Assembly (NCBI RefSeq): GCF_037094685.1
Contig: NZ_CP146614.1
Span: 2,852,001-2,916,000 of the forward strand
From: Massilia sp. METH4
GTDB lineage: Bacteria > Pseudomonadota > Gammaproteobacteria > Burkholderiales > Burkholderiaceae_D
Direction of reading: 5' to 3'
Length of the DNA: 64,000 bases
Position numbers and translations under genes: made by a program. Positions 1-14,621 of this stretch are shown here, piece after piece. Numbering within the stretch: position 1 is the stretch's first letter; each line of letters starts with the position of its first letter. The notes beneath the pieces were generated by a model. That model was given only the letters and a program-made list of their open reading frames with translations, made no database searches and had not been told where the DNA came from.

Positions 1-12
1 CGGTCCGCAAAA

Positions 13-194
13 CCGGTGACAGGCACCGGCACTCGAGAAATGTTTCTTTAAACCCCGTGACAGGCACCGGTCTTCGAGAAATGTTTCTGCAAACCCGGTG
101 CCTGTCACCGGTCTTCAGGAAATGTTTCCGGAAACCCGGTGCCTGTCACCCGCGTTCGGGAAAAGTTTCAAAAAAGCCGGTGCCTGTCACCGGT
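13..194. repeat. Array of five REP-like palindromes (GGTGACAGGCACC type)
   Basis: Five copies of the imperfect palindrome GGTGACAGGCACC lie at about 13-29, 55-70, 95-111, 136-152 and 176-194. The first two are in one orientation and the last three in the other. Centres are about 41 bp apart, and each gap carries a GAAATGTTTC-like spacer that is itself near-palindromic. The array sits just past the stop of the LysR gene, where it could end transcription. It has the look of REP/BIME elements rather than CRISPR, because the spacers are alike. The window edge may cut it. Confidence 0.8.
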
Positions 195-213
195 GTAGCG
201 CCGTCGCCAGGGT

Positions 214-1116
214 TTACACCGTGAACAGCCCCGTGTTCGCTGCCATGATCGCCTCGACCGCGGGGTGCCGGATGCGCCGTTCGCTGGAGATCGCGTAGAA
301 CTGTTCGCGCAGTTCGGTGGCGGCGCCGGCGGGGATGGCGCCGTATTGCGTCTTGATGTCGATTTCCAGGCCGGCGGGGGCGAAGAACAGGCCCAGGCCG
401 TCGCGGGCGAAGGTGGTCAGCATGGCATTGTCCTCGAACTCGCCCACCACGTCGGGCCGCACGTCGTGCTTGAGCAGCCATTCGTCGATACGGCCGCGCA
501 GGGCATTGTTTCGCGTCGGCAGCAGCATCGGCGCATGCTGCAGGTTGCGGGGGAAGTTGCGCCCGTGCTTGCGCACGAGGGCCGGGCTGCCGAACAGCAG
601 CATCTCGCTTTCCCCCAGCAGGTGGTTGTACACGCGCAGGCTGGCCGAGGCGCGCACCGAGCGGTCCGTCAGCACCACGTCCAGCTTGTGCAGCGCCAGG
701 TCGGCGAGCAGCGACTCGAACTCACGCTCCACGCAAACGAGCTTCACGGGCGACTTCATCTCGAAGGCAGTGCGCAGCAGGCGGTAGGCGATCAGCTTCG
801 GCAACGAGTCGGAGATGCCGACGGTGAGGCGCATGCGGCCGGCGTCGGCCTCGTTCAATGCTTCCTGCATGCGGTCGCCCAGCTCGAAGATCTGCTCCGC
901 ATACGTGAGGGCCACGCGGCCCGCTTCCGTCGGCACGAGGCGGCGCCCCTGCTGCGTGAGCAGCTGCTTGCCGACCGATTGTTCCAGTGCCGAGAGCTGC
1001 GCACTGATGGTCTGGATGGCCAGGCCCAGCCTCTCGGCCGCGCGCGTGACACTGCCTTCCGCGGCCACCACGCGGAAGAAGTACAGGTGGCGGAAATTGA
1101 TTCCACTGGTTTTCAT
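214..1116 (-). CDS. LysR-family regulator, NhaR-like
   Basis: This is a 300-residue LysR-type transcription factor. An N-terminal winged helix-turn-helix covers residues about 7-65 (FRHLYFFRVVAAEGSVTRAA), followed by a two-lobed effector domain. The sequence resembles NhaR, the Na+/H+ antiporter activator: the HLYFF start, the GEFEDNAMLTTFARDGLGLFFAP stretch and the IRHPAVEAI tail are typical. No nhaA gene is in the window. It is divergent from the first terD gene across a 193-bp gap that contains a motif repeated upstream of the terC-like gene, so it is the obvious candidate regulator of the Ter locus. That role is inference; LysR proteins commonly control the divergent neighbour. Confidence 0.85.
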   Translation of the reverse strand: MKTSGINFRHLYFFRVVAAEGSVTRAAERLGLAIQTISAQLSALEQSVGKQLLTQQGRRLVPTEAGRVALTYAEQIFELGDRMQEALNEADAGRMRLTVGISDSLPKLIAYRLLRTAFEMKSPVKLVCVEREFESLLADLALHKLDVVLTDRSVRASASLRVYNHLLGESEMLLFGSPALVRKHGRNFPRNLQHAPMLLPTRNNALRGRIDEWLLKHDVRPDVVGEFEDNAMLTTFARDGLGLFFAPAGLEIDIKTQYGAIPAGAATELREQFYAISSERRIRHPAVEAIMAANTGLFTV

Positions 1117-1147
1117 GAGTTCGCTTTTTACGCAGTAATGTTCAAAT

Positions 1148-1185
1148 TATCTTCTATTTTTCAATTGGTGTCTTTTCTATAAACT
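1148..1185 (+). promoter_or_regulatory. Promoter-like motif shared with the terC-like gene
   Basis: A 38-bp stretch aligns without gaps to 7644-7681 at 28 of 38 positions. The conserved parts are TATCTnCTATTTTT and, ten bases on, TTTTCTnTAnACT. A -10-like TAAACT ends it (TACACT in the other copy), while the -35 region is poor. A weak -35 with a conserved upstream block fits an activator-dependent promoter. It lies between the LysR gene and the first terD gene. Confidence 0.55.
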
Positions 1186-1249
1186 GCATGACATTGAACA
1201 AGCAGCCACGCAAAGCGACAGGCTGCCAAGGAATCTCGGCGCGCTACAC

Positions 1250-1284
1250 GACACCAGCCGCGCCGGATGTGCAACAAGGGTGTC
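1250..1284 (+). promoter_or_regulatory. Leader inverted repeat upstream of first terD
   Basis: GACACC at 1250-1255 and GGTGTC at 1279-1284 can pair around a 23-nt loop, ending about 25 nt before the ATG. The same arms, with a different loop, occur at 8823-8855 before the second terD copy. It may be an mRNA leader hairpin near the ribosome binding site or a protein operator. Confidence 0.4.
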
Positions 1285-1309
1285 TTACCAACTGAAGGAG
1301 TAATCGAAC

Positions 1310-1885
1310 ATGGCAATCAGTCTGCAAAAAGGCGGTAACGTCAATCTCTCCAAGGAAGCTCCCGGCCTGACCCAGCTGAAGATCGGCCTGGGCTGGGATG
1401 TGCGCTCCACCGACGGCGCAGCATTCGACATCGACAGCTCGGCATTCATCCTGAAAGCCGACGGCAAGGTGCGCAGCGATGCGGACTTCATCTTCTACAA
1501 CAACCTGAAATCGGCCGACGGCGCCGTGCAGCACTCGGGCGACAACCGCACCGGCGTGGGCGAGGGCGACGACGAGACCGTGAGCGTCGACCTGTCGAAG
1601 GTGCCGGCCGACGTGGACCGCATCGCCGTCTGCGTGACGATCCACGATGCCGACGCCCGCCGCCAGAACTTCGGCCAGGTGCAGAAGGCCTTCGTGCGCT
1701 GCGTGAACAGCGCCAACAACCAGGAAGTGGCGCGCTACGACCTGTCCGAAGACAGCTCGACGGAAACGGCGATGGTGTTCGGCGAACTGTATCGTAACGG
1801 CGCCGACTGGAAGTTCCGCGCCGTGGGCCAGGGCTTTGCCGGCGGCCTGGCCTCCCTGGCAACGAGCTACGGCGTATCGGTGTAA
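1310..1885 (+). CDS. terD: TerD-family stress protein, copy 1
   Basis: This 191-residue protein is a full-length TerD/TerE-type protein. Family signatures are the N-terminal [17 protein letters not shown], then [25 protein letters not shown] and [15 protein letters not shown]. TerD domains are calcium-binding beta-sandwich proteins tied to tellurite, phage and stress resistance and thought to act near the membrane; the acidic GDNxTGxGEGDDE loop is the calcium site. A GAAGGAG ribosome site precedes the ATG. It is followed 47 bp later by a second TerD-domain gene. The protein at 8881-9456 is its near copy, with about 18 substitutions by eye. Confidence 0.95.
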
Positions 1886-1932
1886 GCACGCATGCCGGCG
1901 GCAGGAGCCGCCGGCGAATCTAGGAGTCAGAC

Positions 1933-2514
1933 ATGTCAGTGAATTTGAGCAAGGGCCAGAAGATCTCTCTGGACAAGGAAGCCGGCAGCGCCCTCACGCG
2001 CGTCGCCATGGGCCTGGGCTGGGATGCCGTGAAGAGCAAGGGTTTCCTCGGCTTTGGCGGCAAGAGCGCCGACATCGACCTCGATGCCTCGTGCCTGCTG
2101 TTCGACGAGGCGAACAAGCCGGTCGACGTGGTGTGGTTCCGCCAGCTGAAGAGCCGTGACGGCAGCGTGCAGCACTCGGGCGACAACCGCACGGGCGCCG
2201 GCGACGGCGACGATGAGCAGATCAGCGTGAGCCTGGACCAGGTGCCGGCGAACGTGAAGAGCATCGTGTTCACGGTGAACAGTTTTACGGGCCAGAGCTT
2301 CGCCCAGGTGCAGAATGCCTACTGCCGCCTGATCAATGCCAAGGACGGCAAGGAAGTGGCGCGCTTCGACCTCTCCGTGCAGGGTTCCCACAGCGCCCAG
2401 ATCATGGCCAAGCTGTATCGCCATAACGGCGAATGGAAGATGCACGCGATCGGCGAGAACGGCACCGGCCGCACCTTCGAGGAATTGCTGCCGCAAGTGG
2501 CGCAACACCTGTAA
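1933..2514 (+). CDS. TerD-domain protein, second paralog type, copy 1
   Basis: This 193-residue TerD-domain protein has a longer N-terminal part: KSKGFLGFGGKSADIDLDASCLLFD replaces the short loop of canonical TerD. That form is close to TerZ-like or general-stress (CABP-like) members. The calcium loop [15 protein letters not shown] and the SAQIMAKLYRHNGEWKM strand are intact. It lies 47 bp after the first terD gene with its own ribosome site (TAGGAG), and a strong terminator follows. Only about nine residues differ from the copy at 10196-10777. A paralog-specific name such as terZ is possible but not certain. Confidence 0.93.
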   Translation: MSVNLSKGQKISLDKEAGSALTRVAMGLGWDAVKSKGFLGFGGKSADIDLDASCLLFDEANKPVDVVWFRQLKSRDGSVQHSGDNRTGAGDGDDEQISVSLDQVPANVKSIVFTVNSFTGQSFAQVQNAYCRLINAKDGKEVARFDLSVQGSHSAQIMAKLYRHNGEWKMHAIGENGTGRTFEELLPQVAQHL

Positions 2515-2619
2515 TGCAAGTCGCGGCGGCGCTTGCGCCGCCGCGCAAAGGATGAGCTGTAACGCTGTGTAGTAAGTACTGTGTTTCACCTGCGCCTGCC
2601 CCATGGCGCGCTTCCCTTC

Positions 2620-2653
2620 GCGGTGGTCCGGTCAACCGGCCACCGCTTTTTTT
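2620..2653 (+). terminator. Rho-independent terminator after first terD pair
   Basis: GCGGTGG-T-CCGG pairs with CCGG-CCACCGC around a TCAA loop and is followed by seven T residues. The 73-nt segment 2581-2653 recurs at 10794-10866 with only four differences, so the whole 3' end was duplicated with the gene pair. The ATP-grasp gene starts 27 bp later, so the terminator separates, or partially attenuates, the two units. Confidence 0.9.
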
Positions 2654-2680
2654 GCTGCCGAACTGCCCGAGCGAGGACCC

Positions 2681-3700
2681 ATGCGAGTCTGGTACAACCA
2701 AACCTACTCATCGATCTACAACGCGATGACGCTGATCCGGCAGCATGACGGCGCCGGGCGCTATCACCTCATCTATACGGCAAGCAGCCGGACGGTGGCC
2801 GCCCATGCGGCCCACCAGTTCGAGCTGGAGCCGCCACTCAAGGGCAATGACTACCTGGAATGGTGCCTGGACTTTTGCCGGCGCCAGGATATCGGCATCT
2901 TCGTGCCCCACCGCGAGGCAGCCCTGATCAGCGGGGCGCGCGAGCGCTTCGCCGCGATCGGCGCGCGCGTGCTGGCCGTGGCCAGCCCCGAGGTACTGGC
3001 CCTGCTGCATGACAAGGCGCGTTTCTACGCCACGGTGGACCTGCCCATGGCGGCGCCGCCCGAGACCGTGCCGTTCCACACCGCGGAACAATTCGATGCC
3101 GGCCATGCGGCCTTGCGGGCGAAATACCCGCAGCTGTGCGTGAAGCCGGCCAAGTCCGTGTACGGCCTGGGCTTCGCCCTGCTGGACGAAGCGCGCAGCA
3201 CGGCGCAGATATTGATGTCCGGCGACCAGTACCAGGTGGGCTTGCAGGACTTCCGTGCTGGCCTGGCGGGGCTCGGCGAATTCCGCACCATGCTGCTGAT
3301 GGAGTTTCTTGAAGGACTCGAATACAGTGTCGACTGTGTGGCCGACGATGGCCGCCTGGTATGCGCCGTGCCGCGCCGCAAGCTCGTCAAGCCGGGCATG
3401 GGCCAGCTCATCGACCCGCAACCGGTCATCCTGCAGGCCACCGCGCAACTGGCCGCGGCCTACCGCCTGAACGGCGTGTTCAATGTGCAGTTCCGCGAAA
3501 GCGGCGATCGGGTGCGGCTGCTGGAGATCAACCCGCGCATGTCCGGCGGGATCGGCATGGCCTGCATGGCCGGCCCGGCGCTGCCGTGGCTGGCGCTAGC
3601 CGGCTTCGACCGCGGCTACGGGCGCCTGGAGATCCCCGCCGTGCGTGCCGGCGTACGCGTCGGCGAATGGCAGCATGCCATCGAACTGGGAGAAAGCTGA
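2681..3700 (+). CDS. ATP-grasp enzyme of Ter-linked pathway
   Basis: This is a 339-residue ATP-grasp ligase. It shows a DKARFY segment near residue 111, the nucleotide-binding strand CVKPAKSVYGLGF, the acidic MEFLEGLEYSVD stretch, and the metal-binding tail VRLLEINPRMSGG. These match the ATP-grasp family associated with Ter operons, which should join an acid to an amine or similar group using ATP. The ATG at 2681 has GCGAGGA upstream. An in-frame ATG at 2603 falls inside the preceding terminator stem region and is rejected. The stop overlaps the next ATG as ATGA. The substrate is unknown. Confidence 0.88.
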   Translation: MRVWYNQTYSSIYNAMTLIRQHDGAGRYHLIYTASSRTVAAHAAHQFELEPPLKGNDYLEWCLDFCRRQDIGIFVPHREAALISGARERFAAIGARVLAVASPEVLALLHDKARFYATVDLPMAAPPETVPFHTAEQFDAGHAALRAKYPQLCVKPAKSVYGLGFALLDEARSTAQILMSGDQYQVGLQDFRAGLAGLGEFRTMLLMEFLEGLEYSVDCVADDGRLVCAVPRRKLVKPGMGQLIDPQPVILQATAQLAAAYRLNGVFNVQFRESGDRVRLLEINPRMSGGIGMACMAGPALPWLALAGFDRGYGRLEIPAVRAGVRVGEWQHAIELGES

Positions 3701-4860
3701 TGGGACATCGCGAGATCGACAGCCGCGAGATCGCCATGCCGACGGGTGTGCTGGCGGTTCGCGCCGAGCCTGGCCCGTATGCGATCGACGACCTGGTCGG
3801 CTTCGGCGCCCGCGCCAATGCGAAGCGGGGCTTCCTGTTCGTCAGCAAGGTGCTGGGCAAGCACTGGCCGTCGCGTCCTGCGGCCATGCGTGGCTTGCAC
3901 GATGCGCTCGCCGCGCAATTGCCCGCCGCGCTGCCGGGGCCCGTCGTGTTCATCGCGCTGGCGGAGACGGCGATCGGCCTGGGGCAGGGCGTGTTCGAAG
4001 CATGGCTGCGCCGGGAGCCCCGCAGCGAGGCACTGTTCCTGCACACGACGCGCTACCGCATCGATGGCGCCGAACTCGTCGAATTCGCCGAACCGCACAG
4101 CCACGCGCCACGCCAGTTCCTGCACCTGCCGGAAGATCCCGCGCTGCACGCCCTGTTCATGCGCGCCGGCTCGCTGGTGCTGGTCGACGACGAGGCGAGC
4201 ACCGGCACCACGTTCCGCAATCTGGCCAACGCCTGCCGCGCGCTCAACCCCGCGCTGGCGCACGTGCACCTGGCAACGCTGACCGATTTCATGGGTCCGC
4301 AGGCGAACGACGCGCTGGCCGCCGGCATCGGCCTGCCTGTCACGCATGGTGCGGCGTTGCGCGGCACCTTCTCGTTCGCCGCTGGCGCCAGCTTTCCGGA
4401 AGCGGCGCCGGCCCAGGTGGTCGGCGCGGCCGGTGGCGTGCCGGTAGACGGCGCGTTCGGTCGTACGGGCCTGGCGCGGCCCCTGGCGATACCGCCCGCC
4501 GTGGTGGACGTGCTGGCTGCTCCCATGGCGGCCGGCGAGAGCGCCCTGGTGCTGGGCACGGGCGAATTCATGCATGCGCCATTCCTGCTGGCCTGCGCGC
4601 TGGAGGCGCGCGGCGTCGACGTGCGCGTGCAGTCGACGACCCGCTCGCCGATCCTCGAATGGGGCGCGATCGGCAGCCGGCTGGCGTTCGCCGACAATTA
4701 CGGCGAAGGCATCGCCAATTACCTCTACAACGTGCGGCCAGGCCAGTATGCGCATGTGCTGGTCTGCCATGAAACCCCGGCGAATGCCGCACTGCACGAT
4801 GTGGCGCGCCAGGTCGGCGGCCGGCTCGTGCATTTCCGTTCGGAGGACGACATTGCGTAA
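3700..4860 (+). CDS. Phosphoribosyltransferase with C-terminal TRSP domain
   Basis: This 386-residue protein has two parts. An N-terminal type I phosphoribosyltransferase carries the PRPP loop LVLVDDEASTGTT at about residues 159-171. A C-terminal domain contains the diagnostic TTRSP motif after VLGTGEFMHAPF. This PRTase-TRSP arrangement is known from Ter-associated biosynthetic operons and suggests transfer of a ribose phosphate to a base-like acceptor. The start is the ATG at 3700, which shares its A with the previous stop; longer in-frame starts lie inside the ATP-grasp gene. It overlaps the HAD gene by 8 bp. Confidence 0.88.
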   Translation: MGHREIDSREIAMPTGVLAVRAEPGPYAIDDLVGFGARANAKRGFLFVSKVLGKHWPSRPAAMRGLHDALAAQLPAALPGPVVFIALAETAIGLGQGVFEAWLRREPRSEALFLHTTRYRIDGAELVEFAEPHSHAPRQFLHLPEDPALHALFMRAGSLVLVDDEASTGTTFRNLANACRALNPALAHVHLATLTDFMGPQANDALAAGIGLPVTHGAALRGTFSFAAGASFPEAAPAQVVGAAGGVPVDGAFGRTGLARPLAIPPAVVDVLAAPMAAGESALVLGTGEFMHAPFLLACALEARGVDVRVQSTTRSPILEWGAIGSRLAFADNYGEGIANYLYNVRPGQYAHVLVCHETPANAALHDVARQVGGRLVHFRSEDDIA

Positions 4861-5605
4861 ATTCCTCTTCGTCGACCTGGACGACACGCTGTTCCATTCG
4901 CTGGCCAAGTGCGATCCGCAAGGCGAGCTGCGGCCGATCGCCTTCCTGAAGGATGGCTCGGCCAATTCGTACACGAATGCCCGGCAGCGCGCCTTTCTCG
5001 CCCTGGCAAGCGAAGGGATGACGCTGATCCCGACCACGGCGCGCGACCGCGCGGGACTGGCGCGCGTCGATTACCCGTTCGAACATTACCGCATCATCGA
5101 TTTCGGCGGCATCATCCTGGCGCCGGACGGTACGCCGGACCCGGTGTGGCAAGCACGCATGCAAGACGACATGGCGCAGGCCCTGCCTGGCTTGCAGCGC
5201 GCCCTTGCCGTGGTCGAGGACTATGCCCGGCTGGCCGGCATCCCCGCGCGCGCCCGGCTGGTGGAAGACCTGGGCCTGCCGTTCTACGTGAACGTGAAGG
5301 ACCCGGACAAGGACATGGCGCGGCTCGACGCCATCGAGCGCGAGGCCGTGGCACCCTGGCTTGCCATGGAAGGGCGCGACTTCTGCCTGCACCGTAACGG
5401 CAATAACCTAGCCGTGCTGCCCAAGCGCCTGAACAAGGCGCGCGCGGTCGAGTACGTGCAGGCGCGCCTGCGCGACGAGCATGGCGAGATCATGACCTTC
5501 GGCATGGGCGACAGCCGCACCGATGCCGCGTTCATGGCCGCCTGCGACTACGCGATCATCCCGCGCGGCACCCAGCTCTCGAACCTGGCCCTGGGTGCGC
5601 TATGA
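4853..5605 (+). CDS. HAD-superfamily hydrolase, TTG start
   Basis: This is a 250-residue haloacid-dehalogenase hydrolase, probably a phosphatase in the Ter-linked pathway. Motif I is FVDLDDTLFHS immediately at the N terminus (about residues 5-15), motif II is the TTARDR segment, and motif IV is MGDSRTDAAFM near the end. No ATG precedes motif I at a sensible distance. The TTG at 4853 has GGAGG seven bases upstream and gives MRKFLFVDLDD, so it is the likely start. The gene overlaps the PRTase stop by 8 bp and the next gene by 4 bp, which indicates translational coupling. Confidence 0.85.
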   Translation: MRKFLFVDLDDTLFHSLAKCDPQGELRPIAFLKDGSANSYTNARQRAFLALASEGMTLIPTTARDRAGLARVDYPFEHYRIIDFGGIILAPDGTPDPVWQARMQDDMAQALPGLQRALAVVEDYARLAGIPARARLVEDLGLPFYVNVKDPDKDMARLDAIEREAVAPWLAMEGRDFCLHRNGNNLAVLPKRLNKARAVEYVQARLRDEHGEIMTFGMGDSRTDAAFMAACDYAIIPRGTQLSNLALGAL

Positions 5606-6702
5606 ATAACGCCCTGTCGACCTTCTCGGGCAGCTACGCGCCGGACGACGTGCAATTCCTGCTCAGGCGCCTGCACGGGCAGGCGTTCGTCTCGGTGGAG
5701 GACAAGGAGGCGCTGATCCAGTCCGGGCGCCACCACTACAGCGAGATGCTGTCGGCGGAGGCCTTGCCGTCGGCCCGGCACCTGGAACTGTTCGACGCCG
5801 CGTGCGAGGCCAACCGGGCGCGCATGGCGGCTGACTGCCTGCGCCTTGCCCACCTGCTCGCCGCACGCCGCGCGGGCCAGATCACGCTGGTGTCGCTGGC
5901 CCGGGCCGGCACGCCGGTGGGCGTGATCGTCAAGCGTTTGCTCCAGCGGGTGTTCCACCGCCACGTGGTGCACTACGCGGTATCGATCGTGCGCGACCGC
6001 GGCATCGACGAGGCGGCGCTGCGCGCCATCCTGGCGCATCATGTGCCGGCTTCGATCGCCTTCGTCGACGGCTGGACGGGCAAGGGCGTGATCGCGCGCG
6101 AGCTGGAAATGTCGGTGGAGCGCTTCAATATGCGGCACCATGTGCGGATCGATCCCGGCTTGTTCGTGTTGTCCGACCTGGCCGGCGCCGCCGCGCACGC
6201 CGCCTCCGATGCCGATTACCTGATTCCGTCGAGCATACTGAATGCCACCGTGTCCGGGCTGGTGAGCCGTACCGTGGCCGAGCGCGACATGGGGCCGGAC
6301 GATTTCCACGGCTGCCTCGTGTATGACGAATTCGCCGCGCACGACCGCTCCCGCACCTTTGCGGACGACATCGCCGCCGCCGCGCTGGAACTTGCCGCGG
6401 CCGGCACGCCGGCGCCGGCCGCGATCGACAGGGAGCGCTCCGCGGCTACCTCGCGCGAATGCCTGCGCACGATCGCGCAGCGGTACGGCATTGCCGATGT
6501 CAACCTCATCAAGCCGGGCATCGGCGAGGCCACGCGCGTGCTGCTGCGGCGCGTGCCTCGGCTCCTGCTGCTGCGTGACGCCGACGCGGCCGACGTGGCG
6601 CATTTGCGGCTGCTGGCGCGGGAAAAGGATGTTCCGGTCGTAGTCGATCCCACATTGCCCTACCAGGGCGTTTCTTTGATCAGGAGGAAAGGCGATGCAT
6701 GA
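5602..6702 (+). CDS. StiP/PRTase-like protein with PELOTA-like C-terminal domain
   Basis: This 366-residue protein belongs to the family variously called cysteine protease StiP or Ter-type PRTase_1. Residues about 97-165 contain SLARAGTPVGV and the PRPP-type loop FVDGWTGKG (154-162), supporting a phosphoribosyltransferase fold. The last roughly 80 residues (NLIKPGIGEATRVLLRR to VSLIRRKG) look like the PELOTA/L7Ae-type RNA-binding domain reported fused to this family. The presence of two different PRTases in one operon is typical of this pathway. The protease label in databases is doubtful; I see no clear Cys-His dyad. ATGA overlap upstream and 8-bp overlap downstream. Confidence 0.82.
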   Translation: MNNALSTFSGSYAPDDVQFLLRRLHGQAFVSVEDKEALIQSGRHHYSEMLSAEALPSARHLELFDAACEANRARMAADCLRLAHLLAARRAGQITLVSLARAGTPVGVIVKRLLQRVFHRHVVHYAVSIVRDRGIDEAALRAILAHHVPASIAFVDGWTGKGVIARELEMSVERFNMRHHVRIDPGLFVLSDLAGAAAHAASDADYLIPSSILNATVSGLVSRTVAERDMGPDDFHGCLVYDEFAAHDRSRTFADDIAAAALELAAAGTPAPAAIDRERSAATSRECLRTIAQRYGIADVNLIKPGIGEATRVLLRRVPRLLLLRDADAADVAHLRLLAREKDVPVVVDPTLPYQGVSLIRRKGDA

Positions 6703-7603
6703 CAAACCATTGGGTGCCTCGCTTTACGTGCCCGCGACCCACAAGCACCTGCTTGCCATCGCCAACGGCGAACGGCTCGCCACGCTGCGCTCGGTGATTT
6801 TCTGCACCGAGGACGCGGTGGCCGAGCGCGAGCTGGAAGACGCGCTGGCCAGCCTGGCCGGCACGCTGGCCGCGATGCGGGCCGATGGTCGACTCGACCG
6901 TTTCGTCCGCGTGCGCAATGCCACAGTGCTGGCGCGCGTGCTGGCCATGCGTGGTGCCGACAAGCTGACCGGCTTCGTGATCCCGAAGGCCACGCGCGAG
7001 AACCTCGGCGACTACCTGCGGCCGCTGGCCGGCACGCGGCACCTCCTGATGCCCACGCTGGAAACAACCGAGGTGTTCGATCCGATGGAAATGCGCGCGC
7101 TGCGCCTGCGCCTGCAGGAGCCGGACATCGCGCACCGCATCCTCGCCTTGCGCATCGGCGGCAACGACCTGCTGGCTCTCCTGGGCCTGCGCCGGCCGCG
7201 CGACATGACGATCTACCAGTCGCCGCTCGGCCCCGTGATAGCCAGCCTGGTGACGACCTTCCGGCCGCACGGCTTCCGCCTCACGTCGCCGGTGTTCGAG
7301 CACCTGGATTGCCCGGCGCTGATGGCGCAGGAAGTGCAGCAGGACATTGCCTACGGCATGGTAGGCAAGACCGCCATCCATCCGGCGCAGATCGAACTGA
7401 TCGAACAGCACTTCCGCGTGCAGCCGAAGGAGGTGGCGATGGCGCTGCGCATCCTGGACCGCGATGCGCCGGCCGTGTTCAAGCTCGACGATTCCATGTG
7501 CGAGGTGGCCACCCACCGTGCCTGGGCCAACGCCGTCATTGCCCGTGCCAGCCGCTTCGGCACGCATGCCAGGCCGGGGGCGGGCGACGAAGTACCTGCG
7601 TAA
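6695..7603 (+). CDS. CitE-like HpcH/HpaI-family C-C bond lyase
   Basis: This is a 302-residue TIM-barrel protein of the citrate lyase beta/HpcH-HpaI aldolase type. The features seen are ASLYVPATHKHL at the start, FCTEDAV with acidic metal or substrate residues, LRIGGNDLL, and the late GKTAIHPAQIELIEQ motif. Ter-associated versions form a distinct C-C bond lyase family, so citrate itself is unlikely to be the substrate. AGGAGG lies just upstream of the ATG, inside the preceding gene. It is the last gene of the five-gene overlapped unit; a weak 6-bp hairpin without a T-run follows at 7615-7631. Confidence 0.85.
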   Translation: MHDKPLGASLYVPATHKHLLAIANGERLATLRSVIFCTEDAVAERELEDALASLAGTLAAMRADGRLDRFVRVRNATVLARVLAMRGADKLTGFVIPKATRENLGDYLRPLAGTRHLLMPTLETTEVFDPMEMRALRLRLQEPDIAHRILALRIGGNDLLALLGLRRPRDMTIYQSPLGPVIASLVTTFRPHGFRLTSPVFEHLDCPALMAQEVQQDIAYGMVGKTAIHPAQIELIEQHFRVQPKEVAMALRILDRDAPAVFKLDDSMCEVATHRAWANAVIARASRFGTHARPGAGDEVPA

Positions 7604-7643
7604 ATCCGTCGACGCTTCGGTTTTCCCGAAGTGAGGTTCACAA

Positions 7644-7681
7644 TATCTACTATTTTTACATCGCAATGTTTTCTCTACACT
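7644..7681 (+). promoter_or_regulatory. Promoter-like motif upstream of the terC-like gene
   Basis: This copy of the motif at 1148-1185 keeps TATCTACTATTTTT, a ten-base spacer and GTTTTCTCTACACT. The likely -10 is TACACT (7676-7681). It is 43 bp before the ATG of the terC-like gene. Equal internal spacing in both copies argues that one factor reads both promoters. Confidence 0.55.
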
Positions 7682-7724
7682 ATCGGCACGCATACATAAC
7701 TAAGCAAATAAGGGGAAACATACG

Positions 7725-8771
7725 ATGAAACACTTCAGGATTTCGTTCCTGGTCACGGCCGTCTGCCTGGTGATCGCAGGGTGGTGGGGTTACCGGACCG
7801 GGGGCGTCACGGGCGCCCTGTCGGCGCTGGGCATTGCCATGATTCTGGGCGTGATGGAAGTCTCGCTGTCGTTCGACAACGCGGTGGTCAACGCCTCGGT
7901 GCTGAAGACATGGGACGACTTCTGGCGCAAGCTGTTCCTCGGGCTGGGCATCATCATCGCGGTATTCGGCATGCGGCTGCTGTTCCCGCTGGTGATCGTG
8001 GCCGTGGCGGCCGATATCGGCCTGACCGACGTCTGGACGCTGGCGCTGAACAATCCCGATGAATATTCGCGCCACCTGACCGACCACCATGCCGAAGTGG
8101 CGGCGTTCGGCGGCATCTTCCTGCTGATGGTGTTCCTGAACTTTATCCTGGACCCGGAAAAGGAAACGCACTGGCTGGGCAATTTCGAGCAGAAACTGGG
8201 CTCGCTGGGCAAGATTTCTTCGATCTCGATCATCGTTGCCCTGGGCACGCTGCTGGGCTGCATGTCGCTGGTCGGCGAAGGCCAGAAGCTGGCGGTGCTG
8301 CTCTCCGGGCTGTGGGGCCTGCTGATCTACGTGGGCGTGGATGCGCTGTCGAACTTCCTGGAGAAGGAAGAAGAGGGCGACAGCGGCGTGGGCGAACTGG
8401 TCAAGCGCGGCGGTATCGGCGGCTTCCTGTACCTGGAAGTGCTGGACGCATCGTTCAGCTTCGACGGCGTGATCGGCGCGTTCGCCATCACCAAGGACGT
8501 GGTGATCATCATGGTGGGCCTGGCGATCGGCGCGATGTTCGTGCGTTCGATGACGGTGTACCTGGTGGAAAAAGGCACGCTGGACGCTTACGTGTACCTG
8601 GAACATGGCGCACACTATGCGATCGGTATCCTGGCGGCGATCATGCTGGCAAGCATGAAGTTCCACGTGCCCGAAATCTTCACCGGCCTGATCGGCGTGG
8701 CATTCATCGCGGCTTCCGTGTGGTCTTCCGTGCGGTACCGGAAGCGCCAGGAAGCACTTGCGATGGCTTGA
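7725..8771 (+). CDS. TerC-superfamily (DUF475-like) integral membrane protein
   Basis: This 348-residue polytopic membrane protein has about eight hydrophobic segments. The TerC-superfamily hallmarks are acidic residues inside two repeat-related membrane stretches: EVSLSFDNAVVNASV near residue 45 and EVLDASFSFDGVIGAF near residue 240. The length and these motifs fit DUF475, a TerC relative, rather than the shorter classical TerC. TerC proteins are linked to metal ion handling and to anchoring TerD proteins at the membrane. It has its own promoter-like motif and an AAGGGGA ribosome site, and precedes the second terD pair by 109 bp. Confidence 0.88.
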   Translation: MKHFRISFLVTAVCLVIAGWWGYRTGGVTGALSALGIAMILGVMEVSLSFDNAVVNASVLKTWDDFWRKLFLGLGIIIAVFGMRLLFPLVIVAVAADIGLTDVWTLALNNPDEYSRHLTDHHAEVAAFGGIFLLMVFLNFILDPEKETHWLGNFEQKLGSLGKISSISIIVALGTLLGCMSLVGEGQKLAVLLSGLWGLLIYVGVDALSNFLEKEEEGDSGVGELVKRGGIGGFLYLEVLDASFSFDGVIGAFAITKDVVIIMVGLAIGAMFVRSMTVYLVEKGTLDAYVYLEHGAHYAIGILAAIMLASMKFHVPEIFTGLIGVAFIAASVWSSVRYRKRQEALAMA

Positions 8772-8822
8772 GGAAATCTTAAGAATCGTTGGTAAAAATA
8801 AGAAGAACATGGCGCGCCACAC

Positions 8823-8855
8823 GACACCGGCGCGCCGTGATGGAAGCAAGGTGTC
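8823..8855 (+). promoter_or_regulatory. Leader inverted repeat upstream of second terD
   Basis: GACACC (8823-8828) and GGTGTC (8850-8855) flank a 21-nt loop, matching the arms at 1250-1284. The loop here contains GGCGCGCC. Downstream, both leaders carry TTGAAGGAGTAATCGA or a near match before the ATG. The surviving pairing in diverged leaders suggests function. Confidence 0.4.
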
Positions 8856-8880
8856 TCAACCATTGAAGGAGTAATCGATC

Positions 8881-9456
8881 ATGGCAATCAGTCTGCAAAA
8901 AGGCGGTAACGTCAACCTCTCCAAGGAAGCCCCCGGCCTGTCGCAATTGACGGTGGGCCTGGGCTGGGATGTGCGCTCCACCGACGGCGCCGCCTTCGAC
9001 ATCGACAGCTCGGCCTTCCTGCTGAAGACGGACGGCAAGGTACGCGGCGACCTGGACTTCATCTTCTACAACAATTTGAAATCGGCCGACGGCGCGGTGC
9101 AGCACTCGGGCGACAACCGCACCGGCGCGGGCGAGGGCGATGACGAAACCGTCAAGATCGACCTTGCCAAGGTACCGGCCGACGTGGACAAGATCGCCGT
9201 CTGCGTGACGATCCACGATGCCGACGCGCGCCGCCAGAATTTCGGCCAGGTGCAGAAGGCCTTCGTGCGCTGCGTGAACAGCGCCAACAACCAGGAAATC
9301 GCCCGCTACGACCTGTCCGAGGACAGCTCGACGGAAACGGCGATGGTGTTCGGCGAAATCTATCGCAACGGCGCCGACTGGAAATTCCGCGCCGTGGGCC
9401 AGGGTTACGCCGGCGGCCTGGCCGCGCTGGCCAAGAACTACGGCGTGTCGGTGTAA
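8881..9456 (+). CDS. terD: TerD-family stress protein, copy 2
   Basis: This 191-residue near-duplicate of the protein at 1310-1885 differs at about 18 positions, mostly conservative. All calcium-loop residues ([15 protein letters not shown]) are kept. The first 40 bp of coding sequence are almost identical to copy 1. The next gene (AIM24-like) begins only 3 bp after its stop, so in this copy the terD pair has been opened by an extra gene. Its role is expected to equal copy 1: a calcium-binding TerD protein working with the TerC-like membrane protein upstream. Confidence 0.95.
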
Positions 9457-9459
9457 GCC

Positions 9460-10158
9460 ATGCCAGTCTTTACGATTACCGGGGAAGAAGATCCCTTCCT
9501 GCACGTAACGCTGCGCCATGGCGAAAAGATCTATTGCGAAGCGAACGCCATGGTCATGATGGAGTCCAACCTCGAGCTGAAGGGCAAGATGAACGGTGGC
9601 TTGGGCGCGGCGCTGATGCGCACGTTCGCCAACGGCGAGTCGTTCTTCCAGCAGCACATCGAGGCGGTCAAGGGCGATGGCGACTGCCTGCTGTCGCCCA
9701 CGCTGCCGGGCGCCATGCAGGTGCTGGACGTGGGGCAGCGCCAGTACATGATCAGCGATGGCGCCTTTGTGGCGGCATCGTCGAGCGTGAACCTGAACGT
9801 GCGCACGCAGAACGTGGGCACGGCGCTGTTCGGCCAGACGGGCGGCTTCTTCATCACCGAAACGTCGGGAAGCGGCCAGTTGGTGGTATCGGGCTTCGGC
9901 TCGGTGGCCACGCTGGACGTGGAAGCGGGCAAGGATATCGTCATCGACAATTCCCACGTGGTGTGCTGGGACAGCTCGCTGCGCTACGAGATGTCGGTGT
10001 CGACGAGCCGCAGCAGCGGCTTCCTCGGCAACCTGGTCAACAGCGTGACGAGCGGCGAAGGGATGGTGTTGCGTTTCTCCGGGACCGGCAAGGTGGTGGT
10101 CTGCTCGCGCAGCCGCGCGGCATTCCTGTCCTGGCTGTCGAGTACCAAGCCGCAGTAA
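9460..10158 (+). CDS. AIM24/TIGR00266-family protein
   Basis: This is a 232-residue protein of the AIM24 (TIGR00266) family, a beta-rich fold related to the C-terminal part of some TerD-linked proteins. Recognisable parts are the early LRHGEKIYCEANAMVMMESN, the central SGSGQLVVSGFGSV, and the late SGEGMVLRFSGTGKVV. Family members are often found beside terD genes, but no biochemical activity is settled. It sits between the two TerD-domain genes of the second cassette, with 3 bp before and 37 bp after, and is absent from the first cassette. Confidence 0.88.
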   Translation: MPVFTITGEEDPFLHVTLRHGEKIYCEANAMVMMESNLELKGKMNGGLGAALMRTFANGESFFQQHIEAVKGDGDCLLSPTLPGAMQVLDVGQRQYMISDGAFVAASSSVNLNVRTQNVGTALFGQTGGFFITETSGSGQLVVSGFGSVATLDVEAGKDIVIDNSHVVCWDSSLRYEMSVSTSRSSGFLGNLVNSVTSGEGMVLRFSGTGKVVVCSRSRAAFLSWLSSTKPQ

Positions 10159-10195
10159 TCGCGCTGCGGTCATCGCGTAACCTGAGGAGGATGTC

Positions 10196-10777
10196 ATGTC
10201 AGTGAATTTGACGAAGGGCCAGAAGATCTCGCTGGACAAGGAAGCGGGCAGCGCGCTCACGCACGTGTCGATGGGCCTGGGCTGGGATGCCGTCAAGAGC
10301 AAGGGCTTCCTCGGCTTCGGCGGCAAGAGCGCCGACATCGACCTTGATGCCTCGTGCCTGCTGTTCGACGATGCCAACAAGCCCGTCGACGTGGTGTGGT
10401 TCCGGCAGCTGAAGAGCCGCGACGGCAGCGTGATGCACTCCGGCGACAACCGCACGGGCGCGGGCGATGGCGATGACGAGCAGATCAGCGTGAGCCTGAA
10501 CCAGGTGCCGGCCAATGTGAAGAGCATCGTCTTTACCGTGAACAGCTTCACGGGCCAGAGCTTCGCCCAGGTGCAGAACGCCTACTGCCGGCTGATCAAC
10601 GCCAACAACGGCAAGGAAGTGGCGCGCTTCGACCTTTCCGTGCAGGGCTCGCACAGCGCCCAGATCATGGCCAAGCTGTACCGCCACAACGGCGAATGGA
10701 AGATGCACGCGATCGGCGAGAACGGCACCGGCCGCACCTTCGAGGAACTGCTGCCGCAGATCGCGCAGCATCTATAA
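10196..10777 (+). CDS. TerD-domain protein, second paralog type, copy 2
   Basis: This 193-residue protein differs from that at 1933-2514 by about nine residues. The GFLGFGGKSADIDLDASCLLFD insert and [15 protein letters not shown] calcium loop are unchanged. GAGGAGG precedes the ATG. It closes the Ter locus: a terminator copied from the first cassette follows at 10833-10866 and a REP pair follows that. Coding DNA between the two copies has drifted mostly at third positions, so the duplication is not very recent or the copies are held alike by selection or conversion. Confidence 0.94.
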   Translation: MSVNLTKGQKISLDKEAGSALTHVSMGLGWDAVKSKGFLGFGGKSADIDLDASCLLFDDANKPVDVVWFRQLKSRDGSVMHSGDNRTGAGDGDDEQISVSLNQVPANVKSIVFTVNSFTGQSFAQVQNAYCRLINANNGKEVARFDLSVQGSHSAQIMAKLYRHNGEWKMHAIGENGTGRTFEELLPQIAQHL

Positions 10778-10832
10778 GACCAGCAGACGTACCGTGTTTC
10801 ACCAGCGCCAGCCCCATGGCGCGCTTCCCTTC

Positions 10833-10866
10833 GCGGTGGTCCGGTCTCCCGGCCACCGCTTTTTTT
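10833..10866 (+). terminator. Rho-independent terminator after second terD pair
   Basis: This has the same GCGGTGG-T-CCGG / CCGG-CCACCGC stem as 2620-2653 with a TCTC loop, followed by seven T residues. Only four of 73 bases differ between 2581-2653 and 10794-10866. Confidence 0.9.
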
Positions 10867-10876
10867 GTTGTTCGCC

Positions 10877-10947
10877 CACCACGGGGACAGTCCCCGATTT
10901 TTTACAACACCAGGTGTTGTTTTTTTTCGGGGACAGTCCCCGTGGTG
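10877..10947. repeat. Composite inverted REP pair (GGGGACAGTCCCC type)
   Basis: Two CGGGGACAGTCCCCG palindromes (10882-10896, 10928-10942) are extended outward by CACCA/TGGTG into a 71-bp inverted repeat. A third palindrome, ACAACACCAGGTGTTGT, lies at the centre. T-runs on both sides of the central hairpin could make it a two-way terminator. It separates the Ter locus from the next gene. Confidence 0.75.
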
Positions 10948-11007
10948 AAAGCACAACAGAGTTGGCCTTTGCGGTATGCTGGCCGCCTCATAGTGGAATG
11001 AATACCG

Positions 11008-11301
11008 ATGCGCATCCTGCAATTGATCCTGTTCGTCGCCGTTTTCCTTGCCGTGCTGTGCGGGCCGGTGGTGCTTGCCGCGCGCAAGCTCAATCGGCGC
11101 GGGTATCCGGGCGCGCTGCGCTGGCTGCGCGTCATCGTGCCGGCGCAGTTGATCGTTTCGCTGGGGACCATCGTGCTGGCCGATGAGTATGGCCAACACG
11201 CGCTGCCGACGCTGATCGTGATAACGACGATCGCCACCAGCGCGCTCGGCGCGGCGGTGTTGTGGGTAATGCGCGCGCTCTGCCCGGCGCGGCTGCTCTG
11301 A
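11008..11301 (+). CDS. Small membrane protein of unknown function
   Basis: This 97-residue protein has three hydrophobic segments at about residues 5-24, 42-60 and 68-88. A short basic stretch (ARKLNRRGYPG) follows the first. I do not recognise the family. The ribosome site is weak. It lies alone between the REP pair and a convergent esterase gene, 27 bp from the latter's end. It could be a real small inner-membrane protein; the regular helix pattern supports coding, but confidence is moderate. Confidence 0.6.
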   Translation: MRILQLILFVAVFLAVLCGPVVLAARKLNRRGYPGALRWLRVIVPAQLIVSLGTIVLADEYGQHALPTLIVITTIATSALGAAVLWVMRALCPARLL

Positions 11302-11328
11302 TCAGCGCAGTAACGACACATTCACGCC

Positions 11329-12258
11329 TCACGGCGAGGAAATATTTTTCAGGAAGAATTCCATGCCCCGCGCCATGGCGGGGAAGGCGGCGGAGCCGTG
11401 ATTTTCCCTTGCGAACAGCATGAAGTCCGCCCGCGATACAGCGCCGTTCATCGCCGCCAGTTTCACCGACAGCTCGCGCGCCTCGTCGATCATCCGCCGC
11501 TGCGCCGCGATCGCTTCCCGCGAACCTGGAGCGGCACCAACGCCAGACGGCTGTTCCAGTTCCCCGGCCGAGAGCAGCACGGACGGCTTCACGGCCAGCG
11601 CGCCAGCGCGCCTGTCGAAGCCGGCCAGGCCCGTGAGCACGGCACGCTCGCCGTACCAGATCGACGGGCTGGCGGCGATATACGTGTGGAACATCGCCGG
11701 CCGCGTGAACAGCGCGTGCAGCGCGCACAGGCCGCCGTACGAGTGGCCGTACAAGGCCTGCCGCCGCGGATCGATGGGCGCCAGCGAGCGTACCAGCGGC
11801 TTCAATTCCTGCTCGATGAAATCGAGGAAGCGGTCGGCGCCGCCTTCCGTCGCCGGTGCACCGGCGGTCGGCGGCGTGTAGTCGCGCCCGCGGGCCGGGT
11901 GGTAATCGTCGTCCGTCACATAGCCGATGCCCACGATGACGGGCGCTGCCTGCCCCGTCGCCTTGCCGCGCCGCGCTGCCGTGCGGGCCATCTGCGCCAG
12001 CATCGGGAACGACGCGTTGCCATCGAGCGCATACAGCACGGGGTGGCCTGCGGCGGGCGCCGGCACGTCCGGCACGCTGGTGAATATCCGGTAACGCTGC
12101 CCCGTGGTCGTGGAAGCCAGCTCGCGCTGGCGCGCCTGTGGCAGCGCGACGGGCTGCCATGCATCGGCGGCACGGGCCAGGCTTGGTACGAAGGTGGAAC
12201 CGAGGAGAGCGCCACCGGCAGCCAGCAGGCAGCGGCGCGAAGGGTAAGCAGACGTCAT
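11329..12258 (-). CDS. Tat-exported alpha/beta hydrolase, siderophore-esterase-like
   Basis: This is a 309-residue hydrolase of the Fes/IroE/BesA-type esterase group. A twin-arginine signal (SRRCLLAAGG) with an ARA-AD cleavage site predicts export to the periplasm. The nucleophile is the Ser in YGHSYGG, an acidic residue follows the FHTYIAASPSIWYG strand, and the catalytic His is likely in ARENHGSAAF. Members cleave siderophore esters to free iron. A palindromic Fur box lies 11 bp upstream of the ATG, which strongly supports an iron role. No siderophore synthesis genes are nearby, so it probably processes a foreign or distally made siderophore. Confidence 0.82.
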   Translation of the reverse strand: MTSAYPSRRCLLAAGGALLGSTFVPSLARAADAWQPVALPQARQRELASTTTGQRYRIFTSVPDVPAPAAGHPVLYALDGNASFPMLAQMARTAARRGKATGQAAPVIVGIGYVTDDDYHPARGRDYTPPTAGAPATEGGADRFLDFIEQELKPLVRSLAPIDPRRQALYGHSYGGLCALHALFTRPAMFHTYIAASPSIWYGERAVLTGLAGFDRRAGALAVKPSVLLSAGELEQPSGVGAAPGSREAIAAQRRMIDEARELSVKLAAMNGAVSRADFMLFARENHGSAAFPAMARGMEFFLKNISSP

Positions 12259-12269
12259 GGTCGAATCAG

Positions 12270-12286
12270 ATGAGAATAATTCTCAT
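12270..12286 (-). promoter_or_regulatory. Fur box upstream of esterase
   Basis: ATGAGAAT-A-ATTCTCAT is a perfect 8-1-8 inverted repeat. Its TGAGAATAATTCTCA core differs at two places from the 7-1-7 Fur consensus TGATAATnATTATCA. It is immediately upstream of the esterase start, a normal place for iron-dependent repression. Confidence 0.85.
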
Positions 12287-12305
12287 TCTAACTCAGCGAC
12301 CGGGA

Positions 12306-14621
12306 TCACGCCTGGATCATGACCATTGCCCCGTTATACACCGCGTGCGTGATCACCGGCGCCAGCAGGCTGCCGTTGCGCGCATACGCGCATGCCGTGC
12401 AAAGCCCCAGCACGAACACCGGCATCATCGACAGCGGCGGGTGCACCACGGCGAACAGCGCCGCGCTGACGGCGATGGCCGGCGCGGCGGCCAGCGAGCG
12501 CCGCAGCCCGCCGAACAGCAGGCCGCGGAAGATGAATTCCTCCGACAGCGGCGCGGCCACGCACGCCAGCGCGAGCAGCAATGGCAGCGCGATCGCGCCT
12601 TCCGGGCGCGGCAGGGCGATGCCGAAGTGCCGCATCGCCATCAGCCACAGCACGCCGGCCGCGATGGCGGGCAGGGCCCAGGCGGCGCCCGCCAGCACGG
12701 CGGGCAGCGCGGGCCCCTGTCGCAGCCGCGGCACGCCGCTGGTGCGCATGCGCCAGTACACGAAGCGCGCCAGGGCCCAGACAATGGCGCCGCCGATCGC
12801 CAGCGCGAGCGCCAGCTCGGCCAGTGCGGGAGGTTTCTCGCCCTCGTGGATGATGGCCAGCGCGATCGCCTGCGCGGCGAAGAACAGCAGCGCGGCCACC
12901 ATGCCGTCCGCAGCGGACACGCGCGGCGGCGGTGTAGCCGCCGGGTCGAGCAGGTAGGGCAGGTGGTCGCGCGCCTTCTGCCACAACGCCAGCGCCAGCG
13001 CGGCCAGCAGCACCACGACGGCCACGCGGTGCGCCCACGTGTCCGTGTACAGCGCGAAGCCATACAGCGCGGCGAGGATCGAATACAGGTACACATAGGT
13101 GGGCCGGATGCGCGCCGCCGCTTCCTGCGCCAGCGGGTCGGATGCCCATACCCCCAGCGCCACGGCGATCAGCGCGAACACGGGGATGCCGAGCGCCACC
13201 AGGACGATGCGCGCGAGCAGGTGCTCGTCGACCTGCGGCGCGAAGCCAATGCCGATCGCGAACACGGCGGCCGGGTAGACGAGCGCCAGCACCGCCCACA
13301 GCCGCGCCTTTTCCAGCAGCATGCGCTCCAGCGTGCCGGGGAAGGTGTACAGCAGCCACAGCGCCTGGCCTTCGGTATTGATGGTCTGGAAGGCCGACAG
13401 CAACAGCACATAGCTGCCCAGGCCGAAGGCGATGGAGGCGAGCAGCGCCTGGTCCGTTCCCAGCTGCGCCATCGCGTCGATGCGGCCCGTGAAGAACATC
13501 TGGCTGCCGATGATCACCAGCGGCACGACCAGGCTTTGCACGAGGAAGGTGCGGTCGCGGCCAAGCAGGCGCAGCTCGCGGCGCTGCAGGGCGGTGCCGG
13601 GCAGCTCCTTCAGCGCCGCCGCCGGCGGGCGGTGGGTACGTGCCGTTTCGCGTGAGCTGGCCGCGACCACGCCGGCGGCCAGCTGCCGCGCCAGCAGCGC
13701 GATGCCGGCCCACAGCAGCAGGGCCACCTGCAGCGCCAGCAACGCGGCAAGGCCCAGGGCAGCGGGCATGGAACGGGCATCTAGCCATTGCGCGACGAGG
13801 CCGGGCGGCGTCCACAGCGTCCATGCCGGCCACGCGCGCGCCCAGTCCATCGTGATGCCGCCGCGGCCCGTGGAGAGGGCGATGACGAGATAGATCAGCG
13901 GCATCGCCGCCACCGAGATCGCCGCCTGCAGGTTGCGCAACTGCGAGGGCGGCATGGACAGCCGCAACCCCGTATCGGCCAGCGTGCGCACAACGGCGGC
14001 CAGCGCCAGCAGGGCCAGTGCGGCGGCCGTGGCGGCCAGGGGCGCCGACCAGCGCAGCCCCGCATGCCAGCCAGTCATCAATGCGGCCGGCCACAGCACG
14101 AGCCAGCCGGTGGGGTTGGCGACCGTGCGTTCCAGCACGCGTGCCCACAACAGGCCCGTGCGCGCGACCGGGAGCGTGACGAGCCATTCCAGGTCCCAGT
14201 CCGGCTGCGCCAGTTCGCGGCTGCCGAGCGGCACGAGCAGCGCCACGAGCCACAGCAGCCACAGTTGCATCGCCAGGCCGCGCAGCAGCGGCGGGCTGAA
14301 TGGCCCGTCGCGCAATTCCCCGGCCGCCGCATCGAGGCGGGCGTCGGGGCTGGCCTGGCCGGCGCAGGCGTTATGCGGCGTCAGCTCGCAATGCAGGTTC
14401 ACCACCACCTGGTGCGCCATGTGGGAAAACGCCAGCGTCATCAGCAGTCCCATCACGAGCGGCACCAGCCAGCGCCCGCGGCGCTTGCCGGCGGTGGCGG
14501 CCCGGCCGGTGGCCCGCTTGCGCCACATCGACAGGGTGGCCATGTTCAGCAGGCGGCGCAGCCGCAGCCGCGCCAGCAGCCAGCCGGCGCGTGCCGTGCC
14601 GATATGCGATGCGCCGTTCAT
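12306..14621 (-). CDS. ABC-2-type permease fused to CPBP/CAAX membrane protease
   Basis: This 771-residue membrane protein joins two functions. Residues 1 to about 520 form an ABC-transporter permease with many helices and a large loop (HCELTPHNACAG) after the first helix. The final roughly 200 residues are a CPBP (Abi/Rce1-like) intramembrane protease: the EEFIFRGLLFGGLRR motif has paired glutamates and arginine, and HP and THAVYNG supply later histidines. The ATG at 14621 overlaps the upstream ATPase stop as ATGA, so it is the partner permease; a longer in-frame start inside the ATPase is rejected. It may couple export with proteolysis of the exported substrate. Confidence 0.85.
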   Translation of the reverse strand: MNGASHIGTARAGWLLARLRLRRLLNMATLSMWRKRATGRAATAGKRRGRWLVPLVMGLLMTLAFSHMAHQVVVNLHCELTPHNACAGQASPDARLDAAAGELRDGPFSPPLLRGLAMQLWLLWLVALLVPLGSRELAQPDWDLEWLVTLPVARTGLLWARVLERTVANPTGWLVLWPAALMTGWHAGLRWSAPLAATAAALALLALAAVVRTLADTGLRLSMPPSQLRNLQAAISVAAMPLIYLVIALSTGRGGITMDWARAWPAWTLWTPPGLVAQWLDARSMPAALGLAALLALQVALLLWAGIALLARQLAAGVVAASSRETARTHRPPAAALKELPGTALQRRELRLLGRDRTFLVQSLVVPLVIIGSQMFFTGRIDAMAQLGTDQALLASIAFGLGSYVLLLSAFQTINTEGQALWLLYTFPGTLERMLLEKARLWAVLALVYPAAVFAIGIGFAPQVDEHLLARIVLVALGIPVFALIAVALGVWASDPLAQEAAARIRPTYVYLYSILAALYGFALYTDTWAHRVAVVVLLAALALALWQKARDHLPYLLDPAATPPPRVSAADGMVAALLFFAAQAIALAIIHEGEKPPALAELALALAIGGAIVWALARFVYWRMRTSGVPRLRQGPALPAVLAGAAWALPAIAAGVLWLMAMRHFGIALPRPEGAIALPLLLALACVAAPLSEEFIFRGLLFGGLRRSLAAAPAIAVSAALFAVVHPPLSMMPVFVLGLCTACAYARNGSLLAPVITHAVYNGAMVMIQA

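Follow-up and report, generated by a model that had tools for sequence, protein, structure and literature searches.

The ter locus described here lies in a 64,000-nt stretch of the Massilia sp. METH4 genome (the window, G000:C1:2852001-2916000, inside a 6.88-Mb one-contig genome). It is best explained as a resident TerD cassette that was duplicated together with its control region, with a unit of five enzyme genes between the two copies and both TerD pairs under the probable control of a LysR-family regulator and a pseudoknotted RNA leader. We give this overall explanation a probability of about 0.6. More specifically, comparison of related genomes shows a core operon in which a divergent LysR gene stands beside TerC-terDa-AIM24-terDb, accompanied by a conserved block and, in most loci, by the leader, and which is duplicated in one lineage. 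The first copy is without TerC and usually without AIM24, and the five-gene unit lies between the copies. The new part is the leader, which looks like an undescribed covarying H-type pseudoknot, found in core ter operons across four or more Oxalobacteraceae genera and seldom at other terDa genes.

Within the window, the LysR-family gene (214..1116, minus strand; Pfam LysR_substrate/HTH_1) is the divergent neighbour of the ter operon. On the plus strand it is followed by terDa1 (1310..1885; Pfam TerD 291 bits), terDb1 (1933..2514; TerD 190 bits), the five enzyme genes, a DUF475/TerC-family membrane protein gene belonging to the resident core operon (7725..8771; PF04332 370 bits, with matches to both DUF475 and TerC), and the resident terDa2 (8881..9456), AIM24 (9460..10158; PF01987 196 bits) and terDb2 (10196..10777). 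Open reading frames and Pfam matches agree with the gene positions, frames and families given in the initial annotation, including a TerC-superfamily gene and an AIM24 gene in the second cassette. The doubled cassette of leader, terD genes and terminator that it described proved to be a real direct repeat, in which 300-nt blocks are 88% and 90% identical and an 82-nt 3' element reaches 93%. DNA identity is 89.9% between terDa1 and terDa2 and 91.4% between terDb1 and terDb2.

The genus sample consisted of 60 genomes, own genome included, and the LysR-TerC locus was compared in 42 of them. TerD was present in 55 of the 60 genomes, DUF475/TerC in 60, AIM24 in 59 and StiP, one of the five enzymes, in 14. 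The arrangement LysR< TerC> terDa> AIM24> terDb> was found in 34 of the 42 loci and defines the single-copy core operon, while three loci (L048, L049, L050) read LysR< TerC> AIM24> without terD. The position of LysR is constant in the 37 unbracketed and 5 bracketed loci compared, and 18 core-type loci were found in other Oxalobacteraceae genera (g4, g6, g12, g19). The bracketed layout, with [terDa1-(AIM24)-terDb1-five enzymes] between LysR and TerC, occurs in the window, L021, L026, L028 and L029. With 5 of 60 genomes, the bracket is not the general layout that a search of related genomes might have revealed, and bracketing as a conserved design was rejected. Each bracketed genome has AIM24 once (5/5), in the second cassette in four of them and inside the first in L021, a placement that fits our explanation poorly. 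An ordinary duplication followed by neutral homogenisation, with no selected effect, would account for the rarity of the bracket and for the shifting position of a single AIM24; both terD pairs and both leaders are nevertheless retained in all five species, and we consider this alternative unlikely.

The origin of the two cassettes was addressed with unrooted DNA trees of 55 terDa genes and 46 terDb rows. All ten terDa copies of the five bracketed genomes cluster (97/93) and adjoin resident copies (L035 and the L023 core), and the ten terDb copies give the same picture (100/99). A separate group (95/83) comprises seven module-linked terDa genes plus two genes of other ter loci (L066, L067); L020_a1 and L024_a1 are placed apart. 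Sequence comparison identifies the second cassette as the resident one, because the core operon is single-copy in most genus loci, and the first as a lineage-specific duplicate. The doubled TerD pairs of the initial annotation are thus true duplicates according to the trees and not unrelated insertions; what was not supported is the bracket as a general layout. The copies are not sorted by position (at least 2 (first) and at least 3 (second) changes for terDa, at least 3 and at least 3 for terDb, on starred branches). Within bracketed genomes, the copies are 89.2-92.0% identical for terDa and 90.3-96.0% for terDb, and identity between species is 85.0-96.4%. One duplication followed by exchange between the copies is the simplest reading. 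The duplicated unit would have comprised block, TerC, leader, terDa, AIM24, terDb and terminator, with TerC later lost from copy 1, because the copies of block, leader and terminator are retained.

The same trees bear on a different history, in which the five-gene module arrived with a terDa-terDb pair of its own, subsequently replaced by resident sequence through gene conversion. Module-linked terDa genes are indeed known elsewhere (L022, L025, L027 and L030 in the genus; L092, L106, L119 and others in other genera), and the unsorted copies indicate that exchange did occur. In cassette 1, however, block, leader and terminator are all of resident type, and module-linked terDa genes cluster apart and lack the leader as defined by the model R1 (see below). 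We therefore disfavour the first terD pair as the module's own, and regard such an origin as quite improbable.

Duplication with the control region is supported by an intergenic block that the initial annotation had not described: the LysR-side block is copied before terDa1 and, decayed, before TerC. Copy 1 (1117..1190, plus strand, between LysR and terDa1) and copy 2 (7615..7700, plus strand, between the CitE-like gene and TerC) were both found by alignment to LysR-TerC intergenic regions. The 16-nt core, ATTATCTTCTATTTTT, is exact in copy 1 (16/16) and matched at 14/16 in copy 2. It is also exact in the LysR-TerC block of 35 of 37 unbracketed loci (15/16 nt in L039 and L040) and before terDa1 in 5/5 bracketed genomes. 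Before TerC, the matches are 14, 13, 11, 12 and 9 of 16 in the window, L021, L026, L028 and L029, respectively. For each of the ten block copies, the alignment to core regions outscores all 200 shuffles, and a -10-like CTACACTGC is kept at 7-9 of 9 in all ten. We interpret the conserved block as a putative LysR operator.

The decayed core on the TerC side, at 9-14/16 in 5/5 genomes, counts against identical control of both cassettes, and identical regulation was withdrawn as an explanation. With an exact core ahead of terDa1 and a decayed one ahead of TerC, both effects suggested in the initial annotation, dosage and separate regulation, are compatible with the locus. Separate regulation in the strict sense, where each cassette was retained for its response to a cue of its own, would be a natural reading of this difference, given how well the core is kept in unbracketed loci. 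We find it somewhat doubtful: leader and terminator stay alike in both copies, a -10-like element persists in all ten, and LysR's own promoter may hold the block near LysR. The same bulged terminator-like hairpin with a T-run closes each cassette (2620..2653 and 10833..10866, both plus strand); the first was identified from sequence with a script and, having a bulged stem, is absent from a simple scan. In the window, 27 nt separate the copy-1 T-run from the ATP-grasp start codon. The T-run is intact in 4/5 bracketed genomes and eroded in L021, and where intact it would limit enzyme expression from upstream, a point against the explanation given here.

Upstream of the core terDa genes of the genus, a GC-rich hairpin (S1) carries a loop that pairs with a downstream segment (S2), forming an H-type pseudoknot. 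In most lineages, S2 reads GACACC/GGTGTC, GAACACC/GGTGTTC or CGGAC/GTCCG. Leader copy 1 of the window (1233..1312, plus strand) has S1 at 1237-1243/1259-1265, S2 at 1250-1255/1279-1284 and a Shine-Dalgarno sequence at 1295-1300; in copy 2 (8806..8883, plus strand) these are 8811-8818/8829-8836, 8823-8828/8850-8855 and 8866-8871. From alignment column 74 to the Shine-Dalgarno sequence, 7-17 nt were counted in 13 of 17 genus rows. Covariation was assessed in alignment A2, consisting of 43 genus leaders (42 distinct, L064 left out), in which 86.3% of cells are paired, a value biased in favour of the structure, which was derived from the A2 sequences themselves. Double changes were found in 13 of 18 pairs (shuffled mean 6.9; 0/500 shuffles reach 13), and sliding the partner by 1-3 columns lowers pairing to 29-45%. 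A second alignment, A3, contains the 34 matches of R1, a covariance model with S1 only (68.9 and 76.7 bits for copies 1 and 2), and is fitted to S1, not S2. Here, double changes occur in 14 of 18 pairs and all five measures beat 500 shuffles. For S2 alone in A3, paired cells (79.6 versus 73.6%), double-change cells (21 versus 11.5) and the covariation score beat all 500 shuffles. For pair 24:72, which is paired in 32/34, the terDa tree requires 8 changes or more.

Several results point the other way. Further pair types in A2 are reached by 24/500 shuffles, and for S2 alone both double-change pairs (134/500) and further pair types (479/500) fail against shuffling. The distance from S2 to the Shine-Dalgarno sequence ranges from 6 to 58 nt over 31 measured rows, at odds with simple sequestration. 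Inspected by eye, L100 and L102 show the hairpin only and L128 no clear pseudoknot; L064 has no clear pseudoknot either. The element might instead be a DNA operator, that is, overlapping inverted repeats bound by a regulator, as S1 resembles a palindrome in several species (GGCGCGCC of the window is one example). This seems very unlikely to us: both helices show compensatory change in a crossed topology directly before the terDa start, and a separate conserved block sits further upstream. From the covarying structure and its fixed place before one gene family, we infer that the terDa leader is a cis-regulatory structured RNA.

The distribution of the leader was examined first at 56 loci, where R1 gave 34 matches at E<=0.05 and matched 32 of 34 core-type loci (L110 and L128 were missed; L110 carries the pseudoknot by eye). 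None of the 22 loci with other or module-linked terDa was matched, including TerC-linked ones without LysR in the fetched stretch (L091, L105, L116, L117), and R1 found nothing at the terD-less loci L048, L049 and L050. A pseudoknot score threshold of 22, chosen post hoc, was reached by 43 of 44 core leaders within the genus and 12 of 18 in other genera, as well as by 2 of 35 other terDa upstream regions and 6 of 248 shuffles. Among the misses in other genera, inspection by eye placed the motif outside the 100-nt frame in L093 and L096 and found an imperfect S2 in L112. In our own genome, the two terDa leaders scored 71.3 and 64.8 bits in the R2 search and the next match 20.7. Family-wide, R1 gave 19 rows from 18 of 195 genomes; 16 of these rows adjoin terDa and 3 (24-26 bits) do not. 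Order-wide, the 36 rows obtained with R2 came from 33 of 300 genomes. Five of these are family rows at core ter operons, two being the window's own; of the remaining 31, the 26 taken further as loci had no counterpart of any of 14 window proteins by tblastn, and the other 5 are weak. Eight TerD loci outside the family (f15, f21) gave a single R2 match of 10.5 bits (E 0.33), and no leader was seen beside TerD outside the family in the R2 searches. The genome-wide RNA searches miss cases, since out of hundreds to thousands of first-look candidates only 14-150 were scored.

Rfam 15 gave no leader match in window positions 1-13000 (E<=5), in 10 loci at gathering scores or in 9 loci at E<=1. Literature searches on the leader, its motif and the Ter system, with a coverage that did not extend to the 2012 Ter paper and a 2017 motif survey, returned no report of the leader. 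The Rfam RNA motif known as 'terC' is ter-associated; it was not matched at the leaders, and the window element precedes terDa, not TerC. preQ1-I and SAM-II are small H-type pseudoknot riboswitches, and SAM-V and SAM/SAH riboswitches are termed H-type in abstracts. Like these, the terDa leader is a short 5' leader with a hairpin loop pairing downstream near the ribosome-binding site; unlike them, it has no Rfam match, a different sequence and a Shine-Dalgarno sequence outside S2. A tentative proposal, which we think unlikely to hold, is that the leader represents a new pseudoknot riboswitch class sensing a metal ion or a nucleotide-like stress metabolite, duplicated so that both TerD pairs share a ligand while their promoters drift.

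The enzyme unit between the cassettes is entirely on the plus strand. It consists of an ATP-grasp ligase (ATPgrasp_Ter, 2681..3700; PF15632 140 bits), a PRTase_2-TRSP protein with ATG start (3700..4860; PF15609 203 bits and PF12500 82 bits, in a scan begun at 3697), a HAD-superfamily phosphatase with TTG start (4853..5605; PF08282 (Hydrolase_3), weak at 22.5 bits against a cut-off of 20.9), a StiP-PELOTA protein with ATG start that joins a PRTase-like and an L7Ae/Pelota-like domain (5602..6702; PF11202 334 bits, PF15608 106 bits, and a predicted fold) and a CitE/HpcH-like C-C bond lyase with ATG start (6695..7603; PF15617 (C-C_Bond_Lyase) 300 bits). The reported overlaps of 1-8 bp were confirmed at 1, 8, 4 and 8 bp, and the five Pfam families side by side support the assignment to the Ter biosynthetic set. 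Co-occurrence across genomes, suggested as a check in the initial annotation, held: StiP and PRTase_2, the only two enzymes counted at class level, are in the identical 8 of 229 class genomes, 0.5-1.4 kb apart, and all five enzymes stand in the same order in 14/14 StiP-bearing genus genomes. Predicted folds of PRTase_2-TRSP and StiP are compatible with phosphoribosyltransferases, that of PRTase_2-TRSP resembling APRT/XPRT; in the plain Foldseek list for StiP, aminotransferases on top at a root-mean-square deviation near 20 were judged spurious. The Pfam name of StiP denotes a cysteine protease. That the set makes a nucleoside-like product was already predicted earlier. PADLOC defence-system models gave 0 matches for 9 locus proteins. 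The StiP PELOTA domain was considered as a general binder of the leader and disfavoured, given StiP in 14/60 genomes and pseudoknots in nearly all genus core leaders.

The unit also occurs in genus genomes other than the five bracketed ones. In L023 (genome G045, one of the 34 core loci), it stands across LysR from the core operon, together with a terDa and a gene for a longer TerD protein; CNNM/CorC-type and AI-2E transporter genes lie upstream of the unit. In the other 8 StiP-bearing genus genomes, the core operon is intact and the unit lies elsewhere; six have a terDa before and a divergent TerD after it, and L031 and L032 have neither in the fetched stretch. Individual loci showed further features. 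The L029 CitE-like gene (8252-9147) appears as two pieces in different frames, and L020 and L027 encode a 414-aa TerD protein 3' of the unit's CitE-like gene. In L066 (6906-8252), a TerD-vWA (TerF-like) protein lies between terDa and AIM24; this is the second ter locus of genome G021, which additionally carries the enzyme unit and the core operon. A longer open frame of our own genome encodes a further TerD domain, the fifth, which is divergent (766205-766615, minus strand; L033 4203-4613). Short inverted-repeat clusters of the GGTGCCTGTCACC / GGGGACAGTCCCC type flank the locus on both sides (window 4-208 and 10866-10958); the former has a 41-nt spacing, and similar units occur 3' of terDb in several relatives.

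Under the explanation we favour, duplication of the resident cassette with its control region, LysR would sense a cue and bind the conserved block, with strong binding at copy 1 and perhaps weak binding at copy 2. A second layer of control on each terDa message would come from the pseudoknot, acting on translation or stability. The extra pair would provide more TerD under LysR-side control, with TerC and the resident cassette having drifted to partly different control. TerD pairs, AIM24 and TerC would form the resident response machinery, and the enzymes (PRTases, ATP-grasp, HAD, C-C lyase) may produce a phosphoribosylated, ligated and dephosphorylated small molecule that acts through, signals to or works alongside it. 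The enzyme unit could be transcribed by read-through of the cassette-1 terminator or from a promoter just before that terminator.

Anantharaman, Iyer and Aravind reportedly described, in 2012, a Ter-dependent stress response system with a nucleoside-like metabolite pathway. The locus has the enzyme families of that system (ATPgrasp_Ter, PRTase_2-TRSP, HAD, StiP-PELOTA, C-C_Bond_Lyase) next to TerD and TerC, and differs in its DUF475-type TerC, the duplicated resident cassette as a bracket and the pseudoknot leader. The TerC of Klebsiella probably belongs to another TerC subfamily. TelA, TerB and TerF-vWA had no Pfam match among the 10 window proteins scanned. In the accessible part of PMC7824862, Ter systems are divided into nucleotide-derivative synthesis, TerD/TerB sensing and a TerC membrane response; this source and PMC8115787 cite the 2012 Ter system work. 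As far as the accessible part of PMC8115787 goes, the Klebsiella ter locus has two operons, terZABCDEF and a putative biosynthetic operon. It thus resembles ours in combining TerD/TerC genes with a putative biosynthetic cluster, and the window differs in gene order, the LysR neighbour and AIM24. The accessible parts of the Ter literature name neither a signal nor a product for these systems. A conserved RNA leader before terD would offer a direct and cheap handle on what the system senses, be it a ligand or a pseudoknot-binding protein, and an enzyme unit present or absent beside one conserved core operon would provide natural pairs of close species for metabolite comparison.

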